Assembly: GCF_964355755.1 (NCBI RefSeq)
Contig: NC_092679.1
Coordinates: 13,568,932 to 13,632,931, forward strand
DNA from: Antedon mediterranea
Lineage: Eukaryota > Echinodermata > Crinoidea > Comatulida > Antedonidae
Direction: 5' to 3'
DNA: 64,000 nt
Position 1 is the first letter of the stretch; every line of letters begins with the position of its first letter. The position numbers and the translations under genes were made by a program. Of the stretch, positions 1-9,900 are shown one piece after another. The notes beneath the pieces are model-generated. The model did not search any database. It saw only the letters and a list, made by a program, of their open reading frames with translations, and was not told where the DNA came from.

Positions 1-712
1 ATCCACGATGTTGTTAATAGAGCCAGTAAGAGATTACATATGTTGACATGTTTAAAAAGATTTGGAATGCCTTGTAACCATCTGCGTCAAATGTATATTA
101 GCCACATAAGACCTGTAACTGAATATGCGTGTCCGGTATTGCACTCTGCCTTAACCATAGCACAATCCATGGAGCTTGAATCTATACAGAAACGCGCATG
201 TAGAATAATTCTCGGACAAAAATATGCATCTTATGATCAAGCAATTAAACTACTTAATCTTAAATTTTTAGATCAAAGAAGAGAAGATATTCTTCTTGAT
301 TTTGCTAAAAATCTTAACAAAATCGTCCCTAACGCACTTCCTAAATTGAGAGGCGAAACGTGTGGCAGGATACTTAGGAATGCTAAGAAGCAAAGTGAAA
401 TATATGGCAATACTAAAAGATTCAACAACTCATGTTTCCCAGCACTGTGTAGACTAATTAATAAACCAAAATAAACACATTTCGTGCTTAAGAACAACAA
501 TAATAATAATAAGTACTTTCATCAGTTTTTTCCATGTGTAATATCTCCTTTTTAAAAATATTTTTTTTTTTAACTTTTTAACTTTTTAATGTTGTAAATT
601 TTGATGTTTGAAAGCTTGTACCAATTTTATATGTAAATCTCTCGCAATTAAGTTTTATTTTATATATACTGCAAAGAGAAATATTGAATAAAAGCAGAAT
701 GAATGAATGCAA
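1..712 (+). mobile_element. LINE (non-LTR retrotransposon) 3' end, 5'-truncated by window edge
   Basis: The reading frame open from the window start to the TAA at 472-474 (a Met codon lies at 40) is the region after the reverse transcriptase of a non-LTR retrotransposon. It carries the usual IRPVTEYACPV, LESIQKRACRIILG and FAKNL blocks, ending in [15 protein letters not shown]. About 240 bases of A/T-rich 3' UTR follow, with an AATAAA at 687 and a short (GAAT)n tail at 699-712. Such microsatellite tails are typical of jockey/L2/CR1-like LINEs. The same C-terminal block, inverted, recurs near 43190-43400. The clade cannot be fixed without the polymerase domain. Confidence 0.85.
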
Positions 713-1158
713 TTGTGCCATGTTCAGTTGGAGTTCCTTTGTTAATATTCTTTTCTAAACATCTGCTGTGTTTCAAATCTAAAACATATTTTTACAAATA
801 AGTAACGTACATACAATAATTCTGTATTGTATGTACTTTAAATGCCAATGAATGTTATTTAGCCTAGGCCCCTTTACCATTTTAAAACTTGGGCATTGTT
901 TAGAAGATAGCAGTTTATATTTAGGCATCATTCCTAGGCTAGCTAGGCCCCTATATCACACACATGGATAGGTAGGACTGCAGTTTATAACTGTTACTAA
1001 GCCTAGCCCTATACTTACTAGCCTAGCTAGGCTTTCTTAGAGAGGACAGTTTTAATATCATTGATGGAGGAAAATGGTTTTATAAATTATTTATTTAATA
1101 TAAAATTATATTAATTATTACTCAGAAAAGAAAATCAATCTCTTTTGGTTCAAATGGT
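713..1158. other. Intergenic, no gene seen
   Basis: A/T-rich spacer between the LINE tail and the histone locus. It holds a short inverted pair around 806-838 (GTACATACAATA / TATTGTATGTAC) and a cluster of AGGCC/CTAGGC words (861-1030). No coding sequence is seen. Confidence 0.6.
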
Positions 1159-1174
1159 GGCTCTGAAAAGAGCC
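1159..1174 (-). terminator. Histone 3' stem-loop (second copy, behind the PRPF18 fragment)
   Basis: The minus strand reads GGCTCTTTTCAGAGCC followed by ACCA. This is the canonical metazoan replication-dependent histone hairpin (6-bp stem, TTTC loop), bound by SLBP. A purine-rich AACCAAAAGA follows, as expected for the histone downstream element. It lies 36 bases past the stop codon of a reading frame that is not a histone. Confidence 0.9.
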
Positions 1175-1209
1175 TTTTGGTGTGAGAAGTCTTTGACTGT
1201 GTGTACTGC

Positions 1210-1605
1210 CTATCCACGGATATATTCAACACACCGCGACGGGTCCATTGGATATTGTCTCTGGCAAAGAGTCATTAACCTTTTCAATCCCTGGATGTAT
1301 TTTCTTTGTGTTTTATCATTTAGCACATGAGCAACGTGTTGTGCGTAGATCTTTTCTCTTCCAGTACGGGCATGAATACCCACCATAGTGACTCCTATTG
1401 GCCAAGGGGCATTGCCTACTGCCATTTGGAGATAAGCATCATTTGCCTTCACATAGTTTCTGTCCAATAAAAATCCAACAATCAACTTTAAATGTTCCAA
1501 GATATCTGTTGCAACATTCCTTTTCTTAAGTTTCCTTAAAAGTGGCTTAAGATAAGTTTTGGTTTGCGAATGAGTGGCGCTCAGTAACTTTCCTTTTGTA
1601 CTTCT
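1210..1605 (-). pseudogene. PRPF18: PRPF18 C-terminal fragment fused in frame to an H4 gene tail
   Basis: The minus strand is open for about 130 codons and matches the conserved C-terminal domain of pre-mRNA-splicing factor 18, a second-step spliceosome factor. Blocks in order: [88 protein letters not shown]. The expected C-terminal NAL is replaced by IRG and a stop. From CGTGGATAG onward the DNA matches the end of H4 (GGTGGATAA), the histone 3' UTR and its stem-loop. Upstream the frame meets a TGA in H4-type 3' UTR, so no start codon or N-terminal half is present. The absence of introns suggests an RNA-derived copy. Whether it is transcribed is unknown; the open frame argues for recent origin or constraint. 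Confidence 0.85.
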
Positions 1606-1620
1606 TTTGGTTCAAATGGT

Positions 1621-1636
1621 GGCTCTGAAGAGAGCC
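1621..1636 (-). terminator. Histone 3' stem-loop of the H4 gene
   Basis: The minus strand reads GGCTCTCTTCAGAGCC then ACCA, 36 bases after the H4 stop codon. A purine-rich AACCAAAAGAAG at 1601-1612 is the likely U7 snRNA target (histone downstream element). This signals the non-polyadenylated 3' end of replication-dependent histone mRNA. Confidence 0.95.
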
Positions 1637-1672
1637 TTTTTGGTTTGAGAAGTCTTTGGCTGTGTGTACTGC

Positions 1673-2085
<413 letters not shown>

Positions 2086-2220
2086 ATCTAGCCCTACAGT
2101 AATAACGTTGACATAACTCAATGTGACCTCTTACGGGTTAGGAAATTCCTTATTGTGATTCGGGCGGTAAATTAAAACTAAAAATTAGAATTGCGCTTAA
2201 AAATTGAATATTAAGAAAAT

Positions 2221-2264
2221 CATAGCAACATTCTTAACTTGTATAAGATAAGAATGTTGCTATG
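2221..2264. repeat. Perfect 16-bp inverted repeat (hairpin)
   Basis: CATAGCAACATTCTTA (2221-2236) is exactly inverted as TAAGAATGTTGCTATG (2249-2264) around a 12-base loop. It sits between the H4 promoter and the BEL/Pao fragment. It may be the end of a small element or a transcribed hairpin. Confidence 0.8.
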
Positions 2265-2389: not shown

Positions 2390-3304
<915 letters not shown>

Positions 3305-3438: not shown

Positions 3439-4224
3439 CAAATCTATCAAATCATCAATAGATACTCAGATCGCGCTGGTTTTCGTGAAACAAAAATAGG
3501 CCTAGATACAAAACAAAAGGATAAATACACCTAGGCCTATATATACTGTATTATCCATCTTCCTCCTATTCGATTTTAATTAAACAATAATACTGTAAGT
3601 AATTATAGTAGTAGTAAATTATAGTTTATACACAGCACAAGTACTTTCTTTAAATATGAAGGATGTGGTGTATGTATGTGGGCAGATTTCTCCACAGGGT
3701 AAGGTTTTAACCACAGTAAATGATTGTCATTTCATTAATTTTACCGATAATTAATATTAAGATGGCTCCAACTTTTTATTTCTTCTAATAATTTTTCATC
3801 TTTAAAATATTATATTATATATATATGCCATAGACACCATCCTTAATACGCGGCACCCCCGAGTCCTGGGACTTGGGGAACATGTTTCTTTTATTATTGA
3901 CCTTCCGTCATTAATTGGAAGGTGGTACATATTATGACAACCGATTCTATTATCTCTATTTCGAATTAGAAAACAATATTGCTTTATTTCACAGTGGACA
4001 TTCGGCATTTTGTTACTAATGGACACTTAAGAACAGTCAGGAAAATTCAAAAGAATTGCCATGTTACTCTATACGAGGTACCTGCTATGTGCTGTACACT
4101 TGTTTAAAAGTCAACATTAGACTGAAACAAGGTTCATACAGTATATAGTAAGCCTCCTATCTACAATCCGCAATTGACATTCAGATTCTGTATGAATTTT
4201 GTCCAGACAGCAATGCAAAAAGAA
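3439..4224. repeat. A/T-rich spacer and start of a large dispersed repeat
   Basis: No gene is seen. From about 3608 to 3785 the sequence is repeated at 12659-12945, with identical runs such as TTATACACAGCACAAGTACT and AAGATGGCTCCAACTTTTTA. This marks the edge of a repeat family that fills much of 3.6-6.8 kb and 11.2-12.9 kb. Confidence 0.7.
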
Positions 4225-4345
4225 CATTAATAAAGTGGGCATACCACATTCATGTGGTGTCTCCTGTGTGTATTCTCAAATGATTAATTGAATTATATAT
4301 TTAAATTATTAAAGACAGCACTCTTCCAATCGTTACGAAGGCCTT
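4225..4345 (-). pseudogene. C2H2 zinc-finger relic
   Basis: The minus strand encodes KAFVTIGRVLS and, after stops, HLRIHTGETPHECG. This is the finger helix/linker pattern (H-TGE-K/T-P) of C2H2 Krueppel-type arrays. Only parts of two fingers survive; stops interrupt the frame. Confidence 0.7.
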
Positions 4346-4523
4346 AGACACCATCCGTACATCTAATAAATAAAAAGCAGCTATAAATATTTATCGGAAT
4401 GAGAGTGACAATAAGGATTAACTTTAAAAGAATAAACACTAGAACAAAGAGAATTTCAAGTAGAATTTATTTTAAAAAATATCAATCACAAGATTAAATA
4501 CATCTTGAGACAAGATAAATAAT

Positions 4524-5429
4524 TTGCAGAAGCAAAAAGAAAGATGTAATTGGGTATACCGCATTCATGTGGTGTCTCCTGTTTGTATTCTCAAATTATG
4601 CATGAATTCTATATTTATAAGACCACTTTCCCAATCATACACAGGACAATATTGCTTTCAAAATTTACCAACATATAATAGTCCAATGCTGATTGTGTTT
4701 CTTTCCACAATGTTCACATTCATAGGTCACGTGCACCACGACGATAGAATTATTGCCGAAACCGATTTGTTCGTTTACGGTGTTCTATCTCTGGTAGCGT
4801 TGGTGTACGAACCGACCATCAACAACGGTTCGTTGATGATACGCGTAAATGGATTGTTTTGTGGAATAGTTGCTTCGAACATTAACACTAAACTGTGCGT
4901 CGAGTTCGAAAAAGAAACTCGACGTTCTTGTAAATATTTGAAGATTATGCACGGCGTAAATCGAAAACGACACAAAACGTGCACGAATACGAATACAAAA
5001 GACGACATTGAGGTGCATCATCGCGAATACGAATTTTTTCCTTTGGTGTCGGCCAGAAACGAAGATCCCGACCTAGTTTATTCGTGCTATAATCCATTGT
5101 CGATGCACACCGAACTCGAATTGGAAATTACGCTGATTTCTTCATGGCGACAAAGTGTATCTGTTGAAGATGAAGAAATATGTAGGCGATTGAACGACGA
5201 ACACGGTATATTTGACGCGAAGAATTGTGTACAAAAAATCGATTTCGATGTAATGTATTTGAATTGGATGGAAATCGAAATAGTGAAAAGAATGCTTTGG
5301 TTTTTAATGTCTCAACAGCCATCTGCCCGCGACTGTTTTTCGTCGATGGTTGGTGATAGACGGTGGTTATATAAATTTACGAGTTATATTTCAGGTACTT
5401 GGCACCCTAGATCCAGGGACTATTATTGA
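4524..5429 (+). CDS. Unidentified open reading frame; insert-derived part 4726-5396
   Basis: A 301-codon open frame. The first ~67 codons are repeat-derived. About 220 codons (4726-5396) come from a segment absent in the sister repeat at 11780-11870, where ~90 bases of zinc-finger relic stand instead. The insert differs in composition: richer in CpG, with many ACG, TCG, CGA and GAC codons. It has no internal stop. Visible features: a hydrophobic N-terminal stretch (FVYGVLSLVALVYEP), a basic stretch (NRKRHKTC), an acidic segment (VEDEEICRRLNDEHG) and a Trp/Met-rich C-terminal part (LNWMEIEIVKRMLWFLM). I recognise no domain. The gain of AG|G at both borders hints at an exon-like or captured fragment. 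It may be host, viral or transposon coding sequence; function unknown. Confidence 0.45.
   Translation: MQKQKERCNWVYRIHVVSPVCILKLCMNSIFIRPLSQSYTGQYCFQNLPTYNSPMLIVFLSTMFTFIGHVHHDDRIIAETDLFVYGVLSLVALVYEPTINNGSLMIRVNGLFCGIVASNINTKLCVEFEKETRRSCKYLKIMHGVNRKRHKTCTNTNTKDDIEVHHREYEFFPLVSARNEDPDLVYSCYNPLSMHTELELEITLISSWRQSVSVEDEEICRRLNDEHGIFDAKNCVQKIDFDVMYLNWMEIEIVKRMLWFLMSQQPSARDCFSSMVGDRRWLYKFTSYISGTWHPRSRDYY
4535..4660 (-). pseudogene. C2H2 zinc-finger relic
   Basis: A second degenerate copy of the same finger-linker block (minus strand HTG-type linker next to PHECG), 300 bases from the first. It matches the relic at 11585-11690 closely. It is cut on its right side by the unrelated cassette beginning at about 4726. 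Confidence 0.6.
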
Positions 5430-5599
5430 TCCACCACGCTAGGGTCCAATCGGAATCCAGTTGCTGGTTCCTCTAATGGTGGAAGAGGTGGAAGATGTGC
5501 AGGAATGTGGGAAATTTTAACAATGTCAATGATTCCAAATAAGGATCAAATTGATGCTGTTGACATTTGTGAACATTTAATCCAATGTGATACTCAAGA

Positions 5600-6180
5600 C
5601 ATCCAGGAAAACGTAAACAATAAATTATTATCAAAGGAATAAATACTTTAGATTTAAAATATACTCAAGAAAGTCCTGGAGAAATGCAATTTCATGACTG
5701 ACAACAATGCTAAAATATCCAAGACAAGATAAATATCAATTAATATTTATTATATTTAATAAGGAACGATGAATACTTTAGATTTAAAATATACTAAAGA
5801 AAGTCCTTGAGAAATATGCAATTTCATGACTGACAACAATGCTAAAATATCCAAGACAAGATAAATATCAATTAATATTTATTATATTTAATAAGGAACG
5901 ATGAATACTTTAGATTTAAAATATGCTAAAGAAAGTCCTTGAGAAATATGCAATCTCATGACTGACAACAATGCTAAAAATATCCAAGACAAGGTAAATA
6001 TCAATTAATATTTATTATATTTAATAAGGAACGATGAATAATTTAGAATCAAAATATACTAAGGTCCTGGAGAAATATGCAATTTCATGACTGACAACAA
6101 TGCTAAAAATATTCAAGACAAGGTAAATATCAATTAATATTTATTATATTTAATAAGGAACGATGAATACTTTAGCGTTA
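5600..6180 (+). repeat. Tandem ~130-bp repeat, about 4-5 units
   Basis: Units beginning at an AAGGAACGATGAATA word recur near 5761, 5892, 6026 and 6157. Each contains TTTAGATTTAAAATATACTA, ATGACTGACAACAATGCTAA and ATCAATTAATATTTATTATA. Two more units occur at 12120-12375 in the sister copy. No coding function is seen. Confidence 0.85.
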
Positions 6181-6515
6181 AGCGTCAAGGCCCAGTTTGA
6201 AACCGATTTAGATTATTTCAATGGACAAAGTGGAAGCCTATGTGATGTGATTTTCTGTACATGGTTTCAAGATTTAACAACCCTCGGATACCTGGCAGGA
6301 TCGGATTTTAACATCAGGCAGCCAAGATTATCTTAGGTACAGGTACTTATCTGCCATATTTTATTTATCTGTAATTGAAGCATCGCCTATAGAGATGAGC
6401 ACTGTAAAAGCAATTATTGAATGTAGCTTATAAATGGCTGACAAATTCCAGCTGAAGCAGATAAGTGCTCATATTTGATCCAAGCAATTTATGCTAGTCA
6501 AAGAGATGCGATGAA
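6168..6515 (+). pseudogene. Degenerate copy of a dispersed coding repeat
   Basis: It starts MNTLALSVKA in frame with the last tandem unit and contains QSGSLCDVIFCTWFQ, then stops. Better copies lie at 13761-14095 and 16067-16401. The LCDVIF word recalls the first strands of a BTB/POZ domain, but the rest does not fit, so this is only a suggestion. Confidence 0.5.
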
Positions 6516-6804
6516 CAAATAAAAATTTTAAATATTTTAGATTCAAAATATTGCTGAAAATCTTTCAGAAATATGTAATTATCTGTTACAGCGGAATGCT
6601 CAAAATATCCAGGACAAAGTAAACATCAATTCTTATTTCTTATATTGAATAAGAAAAAATGAATACTTTCAAAATATACTAAAAAAAGTCATGAAGAAAT
6701 ATACAATTTGTTACCGAGAAGAATGCTAAAAATATAAAGGTAAACATCAATTGATATTTCATATAGAAAATGGAAAGATTTTAGATTCTAAACACATTGT
6801 GTTA

Positions 6805-6860
6805 AATTTTTTTCCACAATGTTCACATTCATAAGGTTTCTCTCCATATGTATTCCTAGA
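6805..6860 (-). pseudogene. C2H2 zinc-finger linker relic
   Basis: The minus strand reads NTHGEKPYECEHCGK, a standard HGEKPY linker followed by the C-X2-C of the next finger. It is isolated. Similar relics are at 11760-11860 and 18447-18490. Confidence 0.7.
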
Positions 6861-6995
6861 TCAACAAACCGAAAATAACAAACAATAATGCCAAATTTCC
6901 TCAATTTTCACTAGGCCTAAGTGACAACTCACTAAGTAAAGAGCCGCGATTTACATAAACCACAGCTTGTGGTCTGACAGTGCAACATAAACAGA

Positions 6996-9900
6996 TAGTA
7001 GAGCAGTTAATGACATGAGCTGTGCATTTTATTACCAAAGCATGAAACTTGGCACAAAGTTTCTTTGATGTATATAGATTCAAAATATCAGGGGGTGCCA
7101 AGTGTCCAACGTCCGGTATGGCGGCCATCTTGATTTCAAAATGGCCACCATAAAAACAAAAAATTTTCATATCTTGGCAACTATACACATTAGAGACTTA
7201 ATTCTGGTCTCAAATTGTTCACAAACCATATATTTCTATTTGCTCTAATGAAAAGTTTCGTCCAAAAATGACCGGAAATGACGTTTCTTACAGTTTGACC
7301 TTTGACCTCGTATTTGTATATCTCTGATTTTGGTGTCATTTTGTTCAGAATAAATACATTTATATTTGTAGTAATGAAACATTTTCACATAAAATGACCG
7401 GAAATACAATTTATGACCTTTGACATTAATTTATTGATTTTTAATGTGAATATACTGTAGGTGGTTTTTGTTGGTCTAAAGTGCACCTAATTTTGAACTT
7501 TAACCTGATAGGCGTAATTATATTAAATGATTAATGGACTTAAATTGTATATAGTACATAAAATTGGTAAACATTGTGCTTGGTGGTACCATTAGTTCAA
7601 TGATGTTGGCACCTTCTGATTCGCTAAAAGTTTTAATAGTTTGACAGAGGAAATAACATACATGTTATTGAATACCGTAAAACCTCGAAAAGGTGATAGT
7701 ATGAGCTTCTTTTCGAGACAGACTGTATTTGATTGTCAAATGAATACTAGTATGATGATCGTGTTTATATCAATATATTATTAATGACCTTACAAAGAAC
7801 CCTTTCTATTTCAACAATTAAGCCACAGTTATTCTACAATTTATTGTTTTCCAAGTGGTAGGCTTATTTTGATTGCATCTTATTTTTGTATGCTTCCTCG
7901 GTTAATATGGTCCTAACCCTCCTTCTTTGTCTGTAGATGATCTTATACCCCATTCTTTGTCTGTGGATGGTCTTTACCCGCTTCTGTGTCTGTTGATGGT
8001 ATTATTACACCCCTTTCTTTATGTGTGGATGGTCTTACACCCATTTCTTTGTCTGTGGATGGTCCTACACTCCCTTCTTTGTCTGTGGATGGTCCTACAC
8101 CCCTTCTTTTTCTGTGGATGGTCCTACACCCCCTTCTTTGTCTGTGGATAGTCTTATGCATCCTTCTTTGTCTGTGGATGGTCTTACACCCCTTTCTTTG
8201 TCTGTGGACGGTCTTATACCCTTTTCTTTGTCTGTGGATGGTCTTATACCCCTTCTGTGTCTGTTGATGGTATTACACCCCTTTCTTTGTCTGTTGATGG
8301 TATTAAACCTCTTTCTTTGTGTGTGGATGGTCTTACACCCCTGTCTTTGTCTGTAGATGGTCTTATAATCCCTTCTTTGTCTGTGGGTGGTCTTACATCC
8401 CCTTCTTTGTATGTGGATGGTCCGATGGTCCTACACCTCCTTTTTTGTCTGTGGATGGTCTTATACCCCTTCTTTGTCTGTAAGTGGTCATATACCCCTT
8501 TCTTTGTCAGTGGACGGTTCTACACCCCCTTCTTTGTCTGTGGATGGTCTTACACCCCTTTCTTTTTCTGTGGACGGTCTTATACCCCCTTCTGTGCCTG
8601 TGGGTGATCTTATACCTCTTCTTTGTCTGTTGATGGTATTACACCCCTTTCTATTTGTCCGTTGATGGTATTACACCACTTTTTTTGTATGGCTGGTCTT
8701 GCACTCCTTTAATTTGTCTGTGGATGGTCTTATACCCCTTCTTTATCTGTAAGTGGTCCTATACCCCTTTCTTTGTCAGTGGTGGATGGTCTTACACCCC
8801 TTCTTTGTCTGTGGACGGTTCTACACCCCCTTCTTTGTCTGTGGATGGTCTTACACCCCTTTCTTTTTCTGTGGACGGTTTTATACCCCTTCTGTGCCTG
8901 TGGGTGATCTTATACCCCCTTCTTTGTCTGTTGATGGTATTAACACCCCTTTCTTTGTCCGTTGATGGTATTACACCCCTTTTTGTATGTGGATGGTCTT
9001 ATTTCTTTGTCTGTGGATGGTCTTATTTCTTTGTATGTGGATGGTCTTATACCCCCTTCTTTGTCTGTGGATGGTCTTATATCCCCTTCTTTGTCTGTGG
9101 ATGGTCTTCTCCCCTTCTTTGTCTGTGGATGGTCCTACACCCCCTTCTTTGTCTGTGGATGGTCCTACACCCCTTATTTGTCTGGGGATGGTCTTATACC
9201 CTCTTCTTTGTCTGTAAGTGGTCCTACGCCCCCTTCTTTGTCTGTGGATGGTCCTATACCCCTTTTTTTGTCAGTGGATGGTCTTATATCCCCTTCTTTG
9301 TCTGTGGACGATCCTACATCCCCTTCTTTGTCTGTAGATGGCCTTACACCCCTTTCTTTGTCTGTGGATGGTCCTATACCCCTTTTTTTTGTCAGTGGAT
9401 GGTCTTATATCCCCTTCTTTGTCTGTGGACGGTCCTACATCCCCTTCTTTGTCTGTAGATGGCCTTACACCCCTTTCTTTGTCTGTGGATGGTCTTATAC
9501 CTCCTTCTTTGTGTGTGGATGATCTTACACCCCCTTCTTTGTCTGTGGATGGTCTTACACCCCCTTTTTTGTCTGTGGATGGTCTTATACCCTCTTCTTT
9601 GTATGTGGATGGTCTTACAACCCCTTCTTTGTCTGTGGATGGTCTTACACCCCCTTCTTTGTCTGTGGATGGTCTTACACCCCCTTCTTTGTCTGGACCC
9701 ACTACTTTGATTGATTAAATTAGACATTGTTTCTCGTATGATTAGGAAACCAAGACCTTTAAAGTGAAAGTCCACAGGTGGATGCCTAAACAGGTCTTGT
9801 ACAGAACAGTATATTGTAGGTCCATGTCACTAATTTGAGGATTACTTGAATAATTATATTGAGATGTCTTTTACGAATTGATTTAGTTCGGATTTTGCTA

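Follow-up and report, generated by a model that had tools for sequence, protein, structure and literature searches.

How did coding sequence of the splicing factor PRPF18 come to be joined in frame to a histone H4 3' end in the genome of Antedon mediterranea, and is the resulting structure a fused gene? The locus is situated on contig C10, within a stretch of 64,000 nucleotides that was analysed here (the window), and was compared with the genome assembly of 354 Mb in 18 contigs. According to an initial annotation, the locus looks like a histone gene in which spliced PRPF18 sequence has taken the place of the body; its observations on the sequence were confirmed but its interpretation was mostly wrong, and taken as a whole it was partly supported.

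Table 1. Features of the PRPF18/H4 locus (positions are those of the window)
Feature	Position	Strand	Evidence
H4 promoter / 5' flank	1985..2253	-	95% identity to the C5 H4 counterpart
Histone H4 ORF, complete, 103 aa; target gene of the putative insertion	1673..1984	-	96.6% contiguous match, promoter included, to C5 H4
Upper H4 tail: stop codon, 3' UTR, stem-loop, downstream element; putative first copy of the target-site duplication	1603..1683	-	direct repeat and Rfam RF00032
Insert: piece of the spliced PRPF18 coding sequence, with parts of five successive exons	1221..1608	-	alignment to the parent, Pfam
3' junction, TCC: either brief filler or H4 TCG carrying one substitution	1218..1220	-	alignment
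Lower H4 tail with consensus stem-loop; putative second copy of the target-site duplication	1141..1220	-	direct repeat and Rfam RF00032
Original H4 3' flank	814..1140	-	1140-992 contiguous with the H4 tail in C5; 1140-814 all common to the C2 copy

A spliced PRPF18 fragment

The 130-amino-acid minus-strand reading of the insert matches the Prp18 domain (Pfam PF02840, E=3.6e-53), in agreement with the intronless, stop-free PRPF18 fragment described initially; chance is excluded as a source of either the PRPF18 or the H4 matches. A genome search for the full PRPF18 gene with comparison of exon borders, as suggested in the initial annotation, identified the parent as a normal multi-exon gene on C9, five exons of which are matched in order by the insert (C9:437854-439320) with ~98% identity (six substitutions in 381 bp). 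The four GT...AG introns, whose borders are visible in the parent, are precisely absent from the window. As the five parental exons are exactly joined and the introns are missing, the insert is derived from a spliced mRNA. It covers only an internal piece of this mRNA: it starts within an exon and ends two codons short of the PRPF18 stop, breaking off at GAATATA while still coding, and there is no poly(A) tract at its 3' end, nor are the PRPF18 3' UTR and the 5' part of the gene present.

The claim of an in-frame fusion behind CVEY was correct insofar as the frame runs CVEY-IRG-stop, with about three codons added ahead of the stop, but the portion derived from H4 comprises only GGA-stop plus at most one or two codons; the original H4 stop TAA is TAG in the fused frame. 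The probability of an in-frame junction by chance is 1/3. In the C9 parent the last exon ends VEYNA-stop and is followed by its own 3' UTR; the H4 tail is thus not the usual end of PRPF18, and a PRPF18 locus normally carrying such a tail is ruled out.

The putative H4 target gene and its empty counterpart

Read on the minus strand, the locus consists of an H4 promoter, the H4 ORF, the upper H4 tail, the PRPF18 piece, the lower H4 tail and the flank. A complete H4 ORF thus lies directly upstream of the insert, which speaks against a histone gene body having been replaced; compared with the C5 H4 copies it shows one change, A to V, in the near-invariant TKPAIRR. The same arrangement is found uninterrupted in the histone cluster on C5, where promoter, H4, a single tail and the flank follow each other unbroken and without PRPF18 (locus L051:5795-6587). 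Window positions 2253..1603 correspond to L051:5795-6443 (~96% identity) and positions 1220..992 to L051:6366-6587 (~93%), and these two matches overlap on C5 by exactly the 78-bp tail, L051:6366-6443. Such a geometry is what an insertion that duplicates its target site would produce. The empty site on C5 is a paralogue of the window locus and not an allele at the C10 position.

The H4 genes of the C5 cluster are arranged in tandem, with copies 2.53 kb apart. The cluster (C5:11075000-11117000) has the appearance of a large inverted duplication, with 2.53-kb tandem repeats and arms that are 99.8-99.96% identical, a pattern which could result from gene conversion, recent duplication or an assembly effect. 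One of its tandem-repeat junctions (L051:5642, C5:11098642) is located within the last H4 codons (CTTTACG), within ~10 bp of the site equivalent to the PRPF18 3' junction.

Two H4 tails and their junctions

The presence of H4 3' ends with stem-loops on both sides of the fragment was borne out: the two tails are direct repeats which adjoin the insert at both edges and are 92.6% identical. Both contain a predicted histone stem-loop (Histone3, RF00032) on the minus strand with a score above the gathering score (40.7 bits at 1134-1179 and 36.5 bits at 1597-1641), which by sequence would qualify them as replication-dependent histone 3' ends; the lower stem-loop corresponds to the consensus, and the loop of the upper one is CUUC, not UUUC. 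The tails differ from each other at five sites and by one indel (~7%), a divergence similar to that between the lower tail and the C5 tails. They share a 2-bp ACACACAG variant that is absent from the C5 empty site.

At the upper junction the H4 tail and PRPF18 share a microhomology of six nucleotides, AAAAGA (1603-1608), and at the lower junction there are 0-3 nt of filler at 1218-1220. The mature mRNA of replication-dependent histone genes ends a few bases beyond the stem-loop. The H4 homology of the lower tail extends beyond this point via the downstream element into ~140 bp of genomic flank common to C5, and that of the upper tail likewise continues past the stem-loop through the downstream element. 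Given the downstream element, the flank and the promoter, the H4 parts represent genomic DNA, and no template switch between mRNAs is needed to explain them.

A second copy and the surrounding sequence

A diverged copy of the locus on C2 (C2:25271984-25272662) shows the identical junction between PRPF18 and the H4 tail as well as the same flank, which makes it unlikely that the junction is an assembly join artefact; no further copies of the chimera beyond these two were found in the genome. The PRPF18 part on C2 has suffered deletions of 7 bp and 10 bp which break the frame, and five additional bases are found at its 3' junction. Two substitutions relative to the parent are common to the window and C2 copies, which indicates that a segmental duplication took place after the insertion. 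At its PRPF18 5' side the C2 copy is cut and adjoins an antisense fragment that we take, from its translation and with no database match, to resemble a Ty3/gypsy-type retroelement. The start of the PRPF18 part on C2 is only ~2 bases away from a parental exon border, on its inner side (L038:4662, C2:25272662), which is probably a coincidence.

Upstream of the H4 gene in the window there is an H3 pseudogene on the minus strand (2870-3302, with H3 itself at ~3302..2890). Its identity to a C5 H3 is 96%, yet it contains a premature stop codon (CGA to TGA) and a frameshift near its end; its 3' UTR is broken at AAAAG before the stem-loop, which has been lost. The window locus, in which H4 too has an amino-acid change and an altered stem-loop, looks like a decaying outlier of a C5-type histone cluster. 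A retroelement-like fragment on the plus strand (2400-2870; possibly a BEL/Pao integrase, with no Pfam match for the part of its ORF tested) abuts the broken H3 3' end. The first part of the window (1-712, plus strand) is 3'-terminal sequence from a non-LTR retrotransposon of high copy number with a (GAAT)n-type tail, for which ~40 more near-identical copies scored in the genome; at the 3' ends of nine copies of the local LINE family no target-site duplication could be called reliably, as 5' ends were not reached or flanks were repetitive. Further repetitive sequence comprises a long tandem-repeat stretch at 7986-9775, in which several frames are open with repeats like LSVDGLTPLS, and blocks within 3600-7000 that recur with 87-96% identity in the 9 kb directly upstream (C10:13562100-13568100), representing a local direct duplication.

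Probable insertion with a long target-site duplication

We consider it likely that a piece of spliced PRPF18 cDNA integrated at the H4 3' end and gave rise to a target-site duplication of ~78 bp. According to this scenario, a fragment of reverse-transcribed, spliced PRPF18 mRNA would have entered a C5-type H4 gene at a break staggered by ~78 bp, with subsequent fill-in. As a result, an H4 end comprising the last codon, stop, stem-loop and downstream element would now be present on either side of the insert, and H4 would have retained a complete 3' end. The missing mRNA ends and poly(A), the microhomology of 6 nt and the filler of at most 3 nt suggest that, during repair of a double-strand break, a cDNA was captured or reverse transcription of the LINE type was primed internally, in contrast to canonical retrotransposition with priming at poly(A). 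Afterwards the segment would have been duplicated between C10 and C2, and its decay appears to be ongoing.

Several observations do not fit easily. A duplication of 78 bp is long for a LINE-type event: in an assay in DT40 cells, target-site changes were at most 20 bp in 24 of 25 wild-type LINE insertions, the remaining one showing a duplication of 1228 bp (PMC2666801). RNA-derived patches without poly(A), known as class 2 templated insertions of the double-strand-break type, usually have no target-site duplication (PMC5110952). In addition, the divergence between the two tails is about the same as that of the lower tail from the C5 tails, and the tandem arrangement of H4 in the C5 cluster, together with the paralogous nature of the empty site, leaves room for a deletion model.

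This model is the main rival and comes closer to the original idea of a replaced gene body. It posits two tandem H4 genes, a deletion that started just behind the stem-loop of the first and reached the last codon of the other, and sealing by a PRPF18 cDNA patch, so that the lower tail would be a remnant of the second H4. H4 copies spaced 2.53 kb apart do exist on C5, the ~7% difference between the tails is what separate H4 genes show here, and one C5 repeat junction also falls within the last H4 codons. However, the deletion model needs two independent breakpoints and offers no reason why an overlap of exactly the tail should be left; moreover, the tails share the 2-bp variant lacking in the empty-site copies, and the lower tail is followed by the flank that the adjacent upstream H4 gene should have. 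We therefore regard a tandem deletion as unlikely.

Far less probable is the mechanism proposed initially, in which reverse transcriptase switched between H4 and PRPF18 mRNAs and generated a chimeric retrocopy. Such chimeric retrocopies by template jumps are known from fungi and mammals (PMC2104539), and the PRPF18 piece is indeed spliced. Yet the H4 homology passes the mature mRNA end on both sides of the insert, the upper H4 has a promoter, and the junctions contain neither LINE sequence nor poly(A), all of which argues against this mechanism; the genomic flank on both H4 pieces already contradicts it.

Coding state and possible expression

Least probable of all is that the chimera is a working gene with a PRPF18-derived product and 3' end processing of the histone S-phase type. 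In its favour, the lower stem-loop matches Rfam with a full score and the 381-bp insert is free of stop codons, but with only six changes the absence of a stop would be unsurprising (P=0.70). Moreover, the insert lacks both a promoter and a start codon of its own, the fused frame does not open with an ATG and ends upstream at a TGA in the H4 UTR, the Prp18 domain is incomplete (N-terminally truncated), the substitutions (three silent and three amino-acid-changing) are compatible with drift (P=0.12) with selection undetectable, and both the C2 sister copy and the neighbouring H3 gene are disrupted. Histone-type processing of a PRPF18 message, as envisaged in the initial annotation, is thus very unlikely.

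There is also a slim chance that H4 transcripts reading through the first stem-loop are cleaved at the second, which might yield non-polyadenylated H4 mRNAs with PRPF18 sense sequence in their 3' UTR. This idea is prompted by the presumed gain of a second, consensus stem-loop by an H4 gene whose own stem-loop has lost the first U of its loop. Despite its resemblance to a gene fusion, the locus almost certainly represents an ordinary pseudogene fragment without function, and there is no sign of a new type of gene regulation.

Comparison with known systems

In the literature searched, nothing relevant was found on chimeras between histone tails and retrocopies. The locus is of interest as a clear case of a piece of spliced mRNA integrated without a poly(A) end, and as an example of how a gene fusion to a histone 3' end can be mimicked when one insertion brings about a long target-site duplication; thanks to the paralogous empty site, the event can be read unusually well.

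It resembles processed pseudogenes generated in trans by the LINE machinery in being spliced, 5' truncated, located away from its parent, flanked by direct repeats (with the paralogous empty site) and decaying, its coding capacity being disabled; unlike these, it has no poly(A), 3' UTR or mRNA 3' end, and its repeat measures ~78 bp instead of the usual length of at most 20 bp. Chimeric retrogenes formed by template switching (PMC2104539) also fuse sequences of two transcripts. Both parts would then be expected to stop at the limits of the mature mRNA, whereas the H4 parts of the window locus are genomic and include a promoter (2253-1985) and a 3' flank (1140-992) common to C5. With class 2 templated insertions (TSIP class 2; PMC5110952) the locus shares a short internal piece of spliced mRNA, the lack of poly(A), microhomology at one edge and a junction with little or no filler; these insertions are described without target-site duplications, in contrast to the long one that we infer, unless the tandem deletion should hold after all. 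The rare LINE insertions with duplications far longer than 20 bp (L-TSD LINE retrotransposition; PMC2666801) are similar in this very respect but differ in that the window insert is a piece of a host mRNA and contains no LINE. Judged by its sequence features, the window case would thus combine properties of class 2 templated insertions and of LINE insertions with long duplications, and is an ordinary event with one unusual feature, its long duplication.
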